A stretch of DNA of 22,670 bases, taken from the IMG/VR virus record IMGVR_UViG_3300025889_001029, positions 1 to 22,670 of that record. One strand, written 5' to 3'. Shown in pieces: positions 1,805 through 14,467 of this stretch (the first letter of the stretch is position 1; each line of letters begins with the position of its first letter). The stretch comes from a virus. Below the pieces are notes generated by a model. That model was not told where the DNA came from, did not search any database, and saw nothing but the letters and a program-made list of their open reading frames with translations. The translations under genes were made by a program, and so were the position numbers.

Positions 1805-2212
1805 ATGAAGACTTGTATAAAATGTAATGTTGAAAAACCATTAACTGAATACTATTTAGCAAATAAAGGAAAAGCATACCAATCCAGATGTAAATCATGT
1901 TTTAAAAAACATGTATTGGATAATGGTTCAGTTACCACATATCATAGTAAGATTAAGGGGGTATATGGAATATTTGATAACAATGTATGTTTGTATGTAG
2001 GAGAAAGTCAAGCACTAAATCGTAGAATTGCAGAACATAAAACAAATATAAATCGTATTCAAACAAATACCATTGCTCATCAATTAATGTACAAACAATT
2101 ACAACAATGTCCTAATTTAGAATTTCGTATTTTAGAGGAATGTGATAACCATAAAGAACGAGAACAATATTATATAAATGAACTAAAACCAAAATACAAT
2201 GGACAATTCTAA
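1805..2212 (+). CDS. Zinc-finger plus GIY-YIG homing-type endonuclease
   Basis: A 135-residue protein with two parts. Residues 4-32 hold a probable zinc site, CxxC at C4/C7 and CxxC at C29/C32. Residues about 50-132 form a GIY-YIG nuclease: GVYGIF at 52-57 and LYVGES at 63-68 supply the two tyrosines, R74 is the likely catalytic arginine, E120 in EREQYY is the likely metal-binding glutamate, and N132 closes the KPKYN motif. All key residues are present, so it should be active. Such free-standing enzymes usually act as homing endonucleases that cut relatives lacking the gene. It sits just after the large terminase and overlaps the next small gene by 14 bases. A gene of the same architecture lies at 14036-14431 on the other strand. 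The target site cannot be read from the sequence. Confidence 0.85.
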   Translation: MKTCIKCNVEKPLTEYYLANKGKAYQSRCKSCFKKHVLDNGSVTTYHSKIKGVYGIFDNNVCLYVGESQALNRRIAEHKTNINRIQTNTIAHQLMYKQLQQCPNLEFRILEECDNHKEREQYYINELKPKYNGQF

Positions 2213-3403: not shown

Positions 3404-3426
3404 CACCATAATAAAAAAAAAAACAT

Positions 3427-3636
3427 ATGAAAAACGAATTTATTGAACAATTAGAGAGTATTGGAGCGTGTATTAACACTAACACTGGAATGATTTATTC
3501 TATGTACAAAGATGGTACATATGACCCTGATTCTGAAATCCATGTTACAGAGGCAGACCATTACGAAATTCAGGACTACATCTCAGATGAGGACAATGAG
3601 ATTTATTTGTCTGTATTGGAACAACACCAAAAATAA
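3427..3636 (+). CDS. Hypothetical small acidic protein
   Basis: A 69-residue, strongly acidic protein (ISDEDNEIYL, DPDSEIHVTEAD). It has its own candidate promoter upstream and long-loop hairpins downstream, so it may be a single-gene transcription unit between the packaging/modification genes and the structural block. The start follows a run of A residues, typical of efficient Bacteroidota leaders. No domain is recognised. The size and charge would fit an inhibitor or DNA-mimic type peptide, but nothing in the sequence proves that. Confidence 0.6.
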   Translation: MKNEFIEQLESIGACINTNTGMIYSMYKDGTYDPDSEIHVTEADHYEIQDYISDEDNEIYLSVLEQHQK

Positions 3637-3744: not shown

Positions 3745-3810
3745 AGCGTAGTGGGGCTTCAATTTTTTCTATAGTCTATCATATTATAAGCCCCGCTCCA
3801 CTATTTTTTT
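3745..3810 (+). terminator. Rho-independent terminator
   Basis: A 15-position stem runs 3745-3759 against 3788-3802 with 13 pairs, including the uninterrupted core GGGGCTT/AAGCCCC. The loop is 28 bases. A run of seven T residues at 3804-3810 follows the stem immediately. This is the strongest terminator in the left half and separates the packaging/modification genes from the tail block. Confidence 0.65.
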
Positions 3811-3846: not shown

Positions 3847-4599
3847 ATGGAATATAGTATCAATATACCTGATTATTTAACTGTAAAACATTACAAGGAT
3901 TTCTCTACATTAAAATCATTAGATGATTTAGAACAGAAATTATTTGTTATAAGTGCGTTAACTGAAGAACCATTACAAACCATTAAATCTTATCCTGTTC
4001 CATTTATACTAAGTGTATATGCGAAATTAAACGATAACGTTTTAAATGTTGAACCTGAGTTTTACCCAATTATTGAATGGGAAGGAAAACAATATGGTTA
4101 TCGTCCAATGCATAAAATGACAATGGATGAATATGTTGACTTAGACAATTTATCTAAGGACATAAACAACAATATAAATCAGGTTTTAGCCATACTATAT
4201 CGTCCTATAACCAAGAACAAAATGCAGTCACCACAATTCGTGACTAAATCAACTTTCAAGGTTATAAACGGAGAAGGTGAAAATGGATTTGATTATTATG
4301 AGGTAGAAAAATACGATAACGAGGTGAGAAAAGATCGAGCTAAGGAATATGATGGTTTTCCTGCTTCAGTAGCATTAGGTGCTTTGGGTTTTTTTTTAGG
4401 AACCGCGACCTTATTATCAAGCGATATTCCGTCTTATTCCCAACTGCTGGAGTCAAGGACGAACGTACCGATGAAGAGAAAAAACAAGATAAACAATCTA
4501 TTAGCTCGCATTACGGCTGGTTATATATCTTCCATGAATTGGCAAAAAGTCCCATCCTATCAGTCACTGGAGACAAAGCACTCACTGACATTAACGTGA
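3847..4599 (+). CDS. Tail assembly chaperone-like protein, unshifted product
   Basis: The zero-frame product is 250 residues from ATG 3847. A TTG six bases upstream is in frame but ATG is the better start. Residues 1-184 are shared with the frameshift product. The last 66 residues, after the T9 run, are Ser/Thr/Lys rich with no recognisable pattern and look like an out-of-frame reading of the real C-terminus. If frameshifting is programmed, this is the short form, analogous to lambda G beside GT, though its unshifted tail is longer than usual. If the T-run carries an indel, this product does not exist. Confidence 0.5.
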   Translation: MEYSINIPDYLTVKHYKDFSTLKSLDDLEQKLFVISALTEEPLQTIKSYPVPFILSVYAKLNDNVLNVEPEFYPIIEWEGKQYGYRPMHKMTMDEYVDLDNLSKDINNNINQVLAILYRPITKNKMQSPQFVTKSTFKVINGEGENGFDYYEVEKYDNEVRKDRAKEYDGFPASVALGALGFFLGTATLLSSDIPSYSQLLESRTNVPMKRKNKINNLLARITAGYISSMNWQKVPSYQSLETKHSLTLT

Positions 4600-4682
4600 T
4601 GTTTGCTTTGAATTATTTATCAATGTTAACAGAAATAAATTTAGAAAAACAAGACAAATTAAAGAACAAATATAATGGATAA
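3847..4682 (+). CDS. Tail assembly chaperone-like protein, -1 frameshift product
   Basis: Reading from ATG 3847 and moving to the -1 frame at the T9 run (4389-4397) gives a 278-residue protein: 184 residues in the first frame, then 94 residues from 4398 to the TAA at 4680-4682. The first part contains EGKQYGYRPM (79-88), EYVDLD (95-100), ILYRP (116-120) and FPASVALGALGFF (171-183), features I recall from tail assembly proteins of Bacteroidota phages. The second part (RDLIIKRY, then HYGWLYIFHELAK) reads like the expected end of that family. The -1 frame also overlaps the next gene by 8 bases, as most genes here do. Tail chaperones commonly use -1 frameshifting. A lost T in the homopolymer, in the genome or by sequencing error, would look the same. 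Confidence 0.65.
4389..4398 (+). other. Slippery site for -1 ribosomal frameshifting
   Basis: Nine T residues (4389-4397) followed by A sit in the frame GGT TTT TTT TTA, which includes the canonical heptamers T TTT TTT and T TTT TTA. The -1 frame is open from 4344 to 4682 across this site. No convincing stimulatory stem or pseudoknot was found by eye just downstream. Confidence 0.6.
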
Positions 4683-4884
4683 TAAAGAATTTGAGGATTT
4701 AGAAGGTGATGTTCAACCAATCAAACCAAAACGTAAAGCATTTGGTAAGGTTGAACCTGAATTAACCGAATTAGAACAACGTATAATTGCCTACGAAGCA
4801 AAAAACCAAAACATTCCAGCATTGTCTGCTATGTTTAGAGTTAGTGAGGTAACAATTAAAGAAATATTAAATAAAAAGAAATAA
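4675..4884 (+). CDS. Small HTH-like protein
   Basis: A 69-residue basic protein between the chaperone gene and the tail-terminator-like gene. Residues about 32-66 (LEQRIIAYEAKNQNIPALSA, then FRVSEVTIKEIL) look like a short helix-turn-helix: a helix, a turn at NIP and a putative recognition helix SEVTIKEIL. Its start overlaps the stop of the -1 frame chaperone product by 8 bases, and the next gene begins one base after its stop. The N-terminus is charged and probably disordered. It could be a DNA-binding regulator or a virion assembly factor; its location within the tail genes gives no firm answer. Confidence 0.6.
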   Translation: MDNKEFEDLEGDVQPIKPKRKAFGKVEPELTELEQRIIAYEAKNQNIPALSAMFRVSEVTIKEILNKKK

Positions 4885-10817: not shown

Positions 10818-12707
10818 ATGGCCGAATATAAACTCAATATAGATATAAACACCGCCTCGGTAGCCGACCTTGAACAGGAACTCGAAAGACTACAAGGTCA
10901 ATTTAAAGGTGTTGCTCAAGGTTCAAAACAATTTAATGAATTAGGTAGAGCCGCTCAACAAGTTGAGGGACGAATTAAAAACATTGAACTACAATTTGAA
11001 GCCTTAGATGCCGAACAACGAGCAACTGCTATTGCTGATTCATTTCAAGGTGTAGTAGGTGCTGTAGGTGCTGCTTCATCAGCATTCCTTGCTTTTGGAG
11101 CTGATGCTTCTGCTATTGAGGATGCTGAAAAGAAATTATTAGGTGTAATTGGTGTAGTTGGAGGATTAAGAGACGCTTCAAATGGATTAATTGCCTTAAA
11201 TAAATTAACAGGTGGTTCATTTACTGCTTTAGGTACTCAAATATCTACAGCATTTAAAACAGGTACAATATCTGCTATATCATTTAGAACCGTATTACAA
11301 TCATTAGGTATTGGTTTGTTAATTACTGCTGTAGCAGCATTAGTAACTAACTTAGATTCAGTAGCATCCGCACTTGGATTAGCAACTGATAATGCTAATA
11401 CTTTTAAAACTGCAAACGATGAATTAGAGAAACAATTAGGTGATGTTAATGAAGAAACAGAAATTCAAGTAAGATTACTTAGAGCTCAAGGTGTTAGTGA
11501 AAAAGAAATATTACAATATAAAGTAAGACAGAACGATGCCGATTTAACAGCAATTCAACTTCAATTAGAAAAACAAAAAGGTATAATTCAAGAGAAAAAA
11601 AATCGAAAGGAACAAATAACAGAAGGTGAAACAGCTGAACTTCTAAGATTAGAAAAACTTGAAAAAGCGACCAGAGCTACTCAATTTGAATTTTTAAATG
11701 CTATTATTAAAATTGATCAAGATGCTGAAGCTGCAAGAGCAAAATTATTAAAAGAGCAACAAGATGCTGCTAATAAAAGGAAAAAAGAAAGAGATGAGCA
11801 AGCAGCAAAAGATAAAGCTGACGCAGATAAAGCTGCAGCTGATGCTACACAAGCCGCTATTGACCTTGAAAATGATAGAGCAGATGCTATTGCTGATAAT
11901 CAAGAAGCAGAATTTAAGGATTCATTAGATCGTTTAGATACTTACTATACTCAAAGAGAAACAATATTAAAACAAAATTTAGCTGATGGATTAATAACTC
12001 AAGAACAATTTGATCAATCTATTATTGATCTTGAAGTTGAAAAAAATGCTGCTCAATTAGTAGCATACGAGGATTACCAACAAGATACAACTGATATTTT
12101 AGCAGAACAAACTGATCTTCGTTTAGAACAAATAAAAAGACAAACTGATGCTGATACTGCAGCTACTGATAAACAAAAACAAAATGCTGAAGCATTAGCA
12201 GCATCTAGACAACAATTAGTAAAAGCATCTGCTGATGCAATTGGTGCATTATCTGGTTTATTAAAAGAAGGAACAGCAGCACAAAAATCAGCAGCATTAA
12301 CAGAAATAGCAATTAACACAGCTTTAGGATTTGTTCAAGGTTTAGATATTGCCCAAAAATCAGCTAAAGCAACTGGTCCAGCTGCTGCATTTGCTTTTCC
12401 ATTATTTTATGCTTCACAAATAACAGCTGTATTATCAGCTGCTGCTCAAGCAAAACAAATAATAAAAGGAGGAGGAACGTCAACAACAGCTCCAACTATT
12501 GGAGGTGGAGCACCTTCAACTACTCCAAGTTTACCTACAATACCTGTTACACAAACAGGATTCCCAACTATTCCAACAGGTGGTGCTCAACAAGGAGGTA
12601 CAGGTACCGGAGGACAATTGGTTCCTATTAAAACATATGTATTATCAGGTGACGTAACAACTGCTCAGTCTGCTGATGCTAAACTTAGACAACAAAGAAA
12701 ATTATAA
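10818..12707 (+). CDS. Tail tape measure protein
   Basis: A 629-residue protein that sets tail length. It has long alpha-helical, coiled-coil stretches rich in Ala, Gln, Lys and Glu (residues about 200-480), a hydrophobic segment near 160-180 (LGIGLLITAVAALV) and further hydrophobic helices near 495-545. A Gly/Thr/Pro-rich, probably disordered tail follows, then a closing VPIKTYVLSGDVTTAQSADA segment of a type I recall from Bacteroidota phage tape measures. It is short for the class; at about 0.15 nm per residue it would predict a tail of roughly 90-95 nm. No lysozyme or peptidase domain is seen. The stop overlaps the protease ATG as TAATG. Confidence 0.85.
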   Translation: MAEYKLNIDINTASVADLEQELERLQGQFKGVAQGSKQFNELGRAAQQVEGRIKNIELQFEALDAEQRATAIADSFQGVVGAVGAASSAFLAFGADASAIEDAEKKLLGVIGVVGGLRDASNGLIALNKLTGGSFTALGTQISTAFKTGTISAISFRTVLQSLGIGLLITAVAALVTNLDSVASALGLATDNANTFKTANDELEKQLGDVNEETEIQVRLLRAQGVSEKEILQYKVRQNDADLTAIQLQLEKQKGIIQEKKNRKEQITEGETAELLRLEKLEKATRATQFEFLNAIIKIDQDAEAARAKLLKEQQDAANKRKKERDEQAAKDKADADKAAADATQAAIDLENDRADAIADNQEAEFKDSLDRLDTYYTQRETILKQNLADGLITQEQFDQSIIDLEVEKNAAQLVAYEDYQQDTTDILAEQTDLRLEQIKRQTDADTAATDKQKQNAEALAASRQQLVKASADAIGALSGLLKEGTAAQKSAALTEIAINTALGFVQGLDIAQKSAKATGPAAAFAFPLFYASQITAVLSAAAQAKQIIKGGGTSTTAPTIGGGAPSTTPSLPTIPVTQTGFPTIPTGGAQQGGTGTGGQLVPIKTYVLSGDVTTAQSADAKLRQQRKL

Positions 12708-14035: not shown

Positions 14036-14431
14036 TTAATATAAAGGTTTTAATTGATTTTGCCAATATTTTTCTCTTTCTAAAAGAATATTAATATCGC
14101 AATATTCAATTATTTCAACTTGTAAATTAGAGTAATTAAGTAGTTGAGGATAAAGATAAGATTGAGTAGGAATATGTTTAACAGCAATTTGAGGATTACG
14201 TAAACAACTTCTATGTTTAGACATTCTCTCATTAACTCTTTTAGATTGTCCTACATACAAAGTAATATTATTAGAGGTAATTTTATAAATACCACTATAT
14301 TTACTTTGCCATCTATTCATAGAAATTTTATTACAAATCTTACAAATTTGTCTAAAACCATCCTTAAAAGACCTATCCCTATAAAAATCAGTTAATGGTT
14401 TTTCAATTTTACAACACCCGCACCTTTTCAT
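14036..14431 (-). CDS. Zinc-finger plus GIY-YIG endonuclease, antisense in head operon
   Basis: A 131-residue protein on the minus strand, with ATG at 14431 preferred over an in-frame TTG at 14446. Zinc site: C4/C7 and C30/C33. GIY-YIG domain: SGIYKI around 46-51, LYVGQS at 58-63, R69, and E120 in EREKYW, aligned with those of the gene at 1805. It ends at LKPLY, so the asparagine that normally follows the KPxY motif is missing. It faces against all neighbours, splits the head operon between the 41-residue peptide and the scaffold-like gene, and has its own promoter candidate. This is what an inserted homing endonuclease gene would look like. Whether the missing Asn lowers activity is not known. 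Confidence 0.8.
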   Translation of the reverse strand: MKRCGCCKIEKPLTDFYRDRSFKDGFRQICKICNKISMNRWQSKYSGIYKITSNNITLYVGQSKRVNERMSKHRSCLRNPQIAVKHIPTQSYLYPQLLNYSNLQVEIIEYCDINILLEREKYWQNQLKPLY

Positions 14432-14435
14432 TACG

Positions 14436-14467
14436 TAAATATACAAACAAAAAACGGAAGCTCCAAA
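14436..14467 (-). promoter_or_regulatory. Bacteroidota-type promoter for antisense GIY-YIG gene
   Basis: On the minus strand, TTTG (14467-14464) is followed after 20 bases by TATATTTA (14443-14436), matching 7 of 8 bases of TAnnTTTG at the expected spacing. The ATG begins four bases later, so the transcript would be leaderless or nearly so. Confidence 0.5.

Follow-up and report, generated by a model that had tools for sequence, protein, structure and literature searches.

The locus described here raises the question of how a viral gene in which two reading frames continue past a run of nine Ts is expressed, and whether one or both of the possible proteins are made. The window, that is, the whole stretch of DNA that was analysed, corresponds to a viral record 22,670 bases long, and the T9 run at 4389–4397 (context ...TTG GGT TTT TTT TTA GGA...) is its sole run of eight or more Ts. 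The zero frame extends from the ATG at 3847 to a stop at 4597–4599 and codes for 250 amino acids, and the -1 frame, when entered at the T run, continues to a TAA at 4680–4682 and gives 278 amino acids (Table 1). These product lengths, the presence of the heptamers T TTT TTT and T TTT TTA in the zero frame at 4389–4398, and the overlap of the -1 product with the next start codon had been noted in the first-pass annotation and were all reproduced from the sequence. Its statement that the -1 frame is open from 4344 had to be corrected, since a TGA at 4350–4352 leaves this frame open only from 4353. Judging from the reading frames, the gene probably gives rise to two proteins that have the same 183 N-terminal residues and differ in their C-termini.

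Table 1. Features of the frame-changed gene and its surroundings in the window.
Feature	Positions	Strand	Remarks
N-terminal domain common to both products	3847..4395	+	183 codons, ATG 3847, last residues Phe-Phe; open frame, conserved in relatives
T9 run, site of frame change	4389..4397	+	contains T TTT TTT (4389–4395) and T TTT TTA (4392–4398)
Zero-frame C-terminal extension	4396..4599	+	67 codons and TAA; open against codon usage in window and relatives
-1-frame C-terminal domain	4395..4682	+	95 codons and TAA; conserved -1-frame protein
Next gene, 69 aa, HTH-like	4675..4884	+	ATG 4675 overlaps the -1 product by 8 bases

Relatives were collected by searching IMG/VR with protein patterns located either upstream of the T run or in the -1 tail, which recovered hundreds of them; at most 80 were retained per search, and the locus counts given here refer to the matches listed. 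Prophages were sampled from bacterial genome contigs, and two members were found in bacterial genomes, one a prophage in the isolate genome of Flagellimonas onchidii and the other in an Epsilonproteobacteria MAG. The relatives comprise at least 240 non-redundant loci, reach down to about 25–35% protein identity and include a cultured member, Nonlabens phage P12024S/L. The latter was reached only via a distant member, and a comparison with named phages by sequence gave no match for the window protein. Among the 240 non-redundant loci listed, the frame change lies at the same protein position in all that were examined, and the -1 extension of the relatives spans 80–107 codons. The T run has a length of nine in 206 of these loci, ten in 31, twelve in one and seven in one (L145, 3456–4001); a further run of eight Ts (L294) is cut by a contig end and was excluded from the counts of complete runs. 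Consequently, 238 of the 239 non-redundant relatives whose run is complete have at least nine Ts, the only exception being L145, whose seven Ts stand in the exact heptamer phase and which has kept the -1 domain. The alignment of homologues proposed in the first-pass annotation thus revealed a conserved T run followed by an out-of-frame domain, and an in-frame fusion lacking the slippery run is absent from the 240 loci listed. Since the change occurs at the same position in 240 loci and 477 kb of other genes from these phages contain no run of eight or more Ts, against about 19 expected, frame change and T run are, by this comparison, far beyond chance. The programmed -1 frame change in a tail-module gene that had been put forward for this site is therefore real as far as comparative sequence evidence can establish it.

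In the cultured phage P12024S (L155, NC_018271, 23136–23830), gp38 corresponds to the N-terminal half, with a T9 run where it ends, and the -1 half has an annotation of its own as gp39. These two proteins are the two halves of one frame-changed gene, and the annotated start of gp39 is probably spurious. The halves match phrog_32199 and phrog_38404, both of unknown function, which are kept as separate families in PHROGs and here represent two parts of a single gene. A distant structural relative, gp10 of Flavobacterium phage 6H (Foldseek E 2e-4), was considered as a member and left out, as its C-terminal region seems broken or differently shifted and has no T9 run. At this locus (L156, NC_021867, 10352–10927 on the minus strand, and the sequence downstream) more than one frame change seems to be needed to arrive at the conserved C-terminus, a pattern that seems to reflect a sequencing error or a different mechanism.

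Comparison of the two frames beyond the T run indicates that both are under selection. The -1-frame tail is conserved as a protein, and its conservation begins directly at the T run, where there is no start codon; its structure model is helical (pLDDT 73), with generic helical bundles as structural matches. The zero-frame tail had been taken for noise in the first-pass annotation, a view contradicted by the stretch of about 60 codons that, in the window as in the relatives, stays free of stops despite the codon usage. When the -1 codons were shuffled among synonyms, the zero frame closed at a median of 5–7 codons, compared to the 62–67 codons that are open in the window and its near relatives. 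Given the -1 amino acids and the codon usage, a stop would be expected within about five codons in the window, yet 67 codons stay open. The chance of the observed openness, calculated from codon usage, is 3e-4 for the window, with a median of 0.01 over 157 relatives. The common codons TTA, ATA, and GTA are avoided in the -1 frame where zero-frame stops would arise from them, and this avoidance is gone beyond the zero-frame stop, where 432 stops were observed in the relatives versus 365 expected. The feature kept in the zero frame is thus an open tail of about 60 residues, and because this tail is held open against codon usage, both products are probably made.

Which machine slips at the run was addressed by comparing the length of the T runs with their codon phase. 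The core of each run is a pair of Phe codons, and a leftward extension by one, two or three Ts defines layouts starting at codon position 3, 2, or 1, for which a T TTT TTT heptamer requires seven, eight, and nine Ts, respectively. Run starts were found at all three codon positions, and with the exception of L145 at least nine Ts are present in each layout. The number of Ts contributed by the codon following the Phe pair is just what is needed for this length: runs starting at codon position 3 continue with TT in 82 of 83 cases, those starting at position 2 continue with T in 133 of 133 and with TT in only 19 of 133, and those starting at position 1, which have nine Ts already, continue with T in only 12 of 23 (all raw tip counts, uncorrected for shared ancestry). 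In a tree comprising 85 members, nine changes of layout were counted, and L145 is the single row below nine Ts. The conserved quantity thus looks like run length and not heptamer phase. Across the 477 kb of other genes from these phages, T7 is rarer than expected in every codon phase, with the weakest depletion in the heptamer phase, and therefore the heptamer is not itself what is avoided. Flagellimonas genes (254 kb) contain T7 39 times and T8 11 times versus 46 and 15 expected, which is not a significant depletion, and a single A/T run of nine or more was found in them versus about 21 expected. This shortage of runs of nine or more resembles the nine-nucleotide threshold of transcriptional slippage described for many bacteria (Baranov et al., 2005; PMC1088944), but the host of the window phage may differ from Flagellimonas.

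Transcriptional slippage is somewhat favoured over ribosomal frameshifting by these data, because at least nine Ts in every phase are not required by the heptamer and are required for slippage of RNA polymerase; the site itself is a coding homopolymer of at least nine Ts that is conserved in length. That the two products arise through RNA polymerase slippage on the T run is, in our estimate, somewhat better than an even bet. RNA polymerase would slip while copying the weak rU:dA run, and a fraction of the mRNAs would gain one U (U10) and give the -1 form by ordinary decoding. The unslipped U9 mRNA would give the zero-frame form, and translation of U8 or U11 mRNAs would terminate almost immediately in the third frame. 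The resulting pair would act like lambda gpG/gpGT, in which a tail assembly chaperone and a longer version of it are needed at a set ratio. Two points count against slippage: a T9 run in any phase always contains an in-frame T TTT TTT, and L145 keeps its -1 domain with seven Ts in exact heptamer phase. Residue preferences after Phe-Phe could be a partial cause of the T pattern, and the rarity of long runs elsewhere may stem from replication slippage. Slippage thresholds also vary among bacteria.

The strongest competing explanation, which we consider a serious possibility although the less probable one, is programmed -1 ribosomal frameshifting as in lambda gpG/gpGT. Here the tRNAs on UUU UUU or UUU UUA would slip back by one base on U UUU UUU or U UUU UUA, and the length of the run would only add slipperiness. 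As proposed in the first-pass annotation, the heptamer is indeed present in the right phase: every complete run, including the seven Ts of L145, contains an in-frame T TTT TTT, to which the window adds T TTT TTA. The comparative data, however, favour run length over heptamer phase, as the heptamer does not predict nine or more Ts in each codon phase, and neither the genes of Flagellimonas nor those of the phages avoid in-frame T7 and T8 in particular. A downstream stem-loop as stimulator was considered and discarded, because in 12 relatives the 80 nt after the run showed no excess stability in pseudoknot-free folding (z -0.8 to 1.3), and the window contains no Rfam family. Some ribosomal frameshift sites need no stimulatory structure. 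On the other hand, the tail chaperone cases covered by reviews shift ribosomally (PMC5009743, PMC3711429). L145 provides a natural test case between ribosomal and transcriptional slippage, and slippage of RNA polymerase can be tested directly by mRNA sequencing.

Very little speaks for a decayed or split gene whose -1 part is a separate gene with a start of its own. The separate annotation of gp39 in P12024S and the TTG codons that some loci have close to the beginning of the -1 frame would fit such an arrangement, but the -1 part is conserved from the T run onward and not from a start codon, the run too is conserved, and no relative with separated parts occurs among those listed. Least probable is an assembly or sequencing error in which one T was lost from the homopolymer of a single-frame gene, an alternative raised in the first-pass annotation. 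Homopolymers are error-prone and the -1 frame past the run clearly codes for protein, which would fit such an error, but a missing base in the window is ruled out by the relatives, which share run and frame change in 240 non-redundant assemblies without any in-frame fusion, with metagenome assemblies, the cultured P12024S and the isolate Flagellimonas onchidii in agreement, and the zero frame past the run is also selected to stay open.

With regard to function, the gene had been described as tail chaperone-like. Its location in a tail module stood up to analysis: in the window and in distant members it lies 3' of the gene of the terminase large subunit, either directly or with few genes between, and is followed further downstream by genes for a protein of about 152 aa and for one resembling HK97 gp10. 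The genes after the frame-changed gene in the window code for 69 aa (with a weak PHROG match to a late transcriptional activator, E 0.014), 155 aa, and the HK97-gp10-like protein. A position directly upstream of the tape measure gene was not found, as the gene starting at 10818, which by the character of its sequence is likely that of the tape measure protein, lies about 6 kb further on. The N-terminal domain was modelled with a mean AlphaFold pLDDT of 85, and of the PDB chains that were realigned with VIA-align the best was 2ob9, the HK97 tail assembly chaperone gp13, with a weak Z of 4.2 (next Z 2.7); residues 1–69 of the domain were matched with 63 residues aligned at an rmsd of 3.2, and a Z below 8 may reflect a common arrangement. 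Foldseek returned confident matches of this domain to uncharacterised phage proteins only and nothing in the PDB. Neither Pfam nor PHROGs gave a confident family for the window protein, and one member matched Pfam Phage_TAC_7 at an E of only 0.2. Based on the tail-module neighbourhood and the top structural match to HK97 gp13, which together lend modest support, our best guess is a putative tail assembly chaperone role like that of gpG/gpGT.

Tail chaperones with two products are a textbook case in phage biology, and their expression is generally attributed to ribosomal frameshifting. The lambda G frame stops shortly past the slip, whereas about 60 codons of the present gene are coding in both frames. 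The gene resembles lambda gpG/gpGT and HK97 gp13/gp14 in being a tail-module gene with a common N-terminus and a longer product through a -1 change, deduced here from sequence, but no sequence similarity to them was found, and it differs in its run of at least nine Ts in any codon phase and in lying apart from the likely tape measure gene. Bacterial slippage on A9/T9 is known from Thermus dnaX, Shigella spa13 and mxiE, and IS elements (PMC1088944, PMC5009743), which likewise have a coding homopolymer of at least nine that leads to two products, with a similar threshold length; in contrast to these, the present case concerns a phage tail-module gene, and slippage is suggested by comparison. Two-product tail chaperones (PMC5009743, PMC3711429) and transcriptional slippage are each known; a search of the open-licence literature turned up nothing, apart from reviews and prediction surveys, that connects transcriptional slippage with a tail assembly chaperone gene. 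The broadest reading, to which we give slightly less than an even chance, is that RNA polymerase slippage on a run kept at nine or more Ts, in place of a lambda-like ribosomal frameshift, fixes the ratio of two tail-assembly proteins in a widespread lineage of uncultured phages that includes members in Bacteroidota, with two C-termini encoded in overlapping frames. If true, the two-protein tail design would be reachable by a gene-expression step other than ribosomal frameshifting. This protein is split or truncated by gene callers and in family libraries, and its conserved C-terminal domain can thereby be missed.

Three further features of the window were observed. A long inverted repeat at 3745–3810 (GTGGGGCTT ... 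AAGCCCCGCTCCAC), followed by seven Ts, lies just 5' of the frame-changed gene; it was absent from the output of a simple terminator scan, and resembles either an attenuator or a long-looped terminator, dividing this gene from the upstream genes. A noncoding A11 run is located at 3413–3423, just 5' of a small ORF at 3427. Finally, two related GIY-YIG-like proteins with the N-terminal zinc-finger-like motif CxxCxxxKPLTxxY are encoded at 1805–2212 (+) and 14036–14446 (-), one within the terminase-tail interval and the other adjoining the scaffold gene, and by their motifs are likely homing endonucleases.
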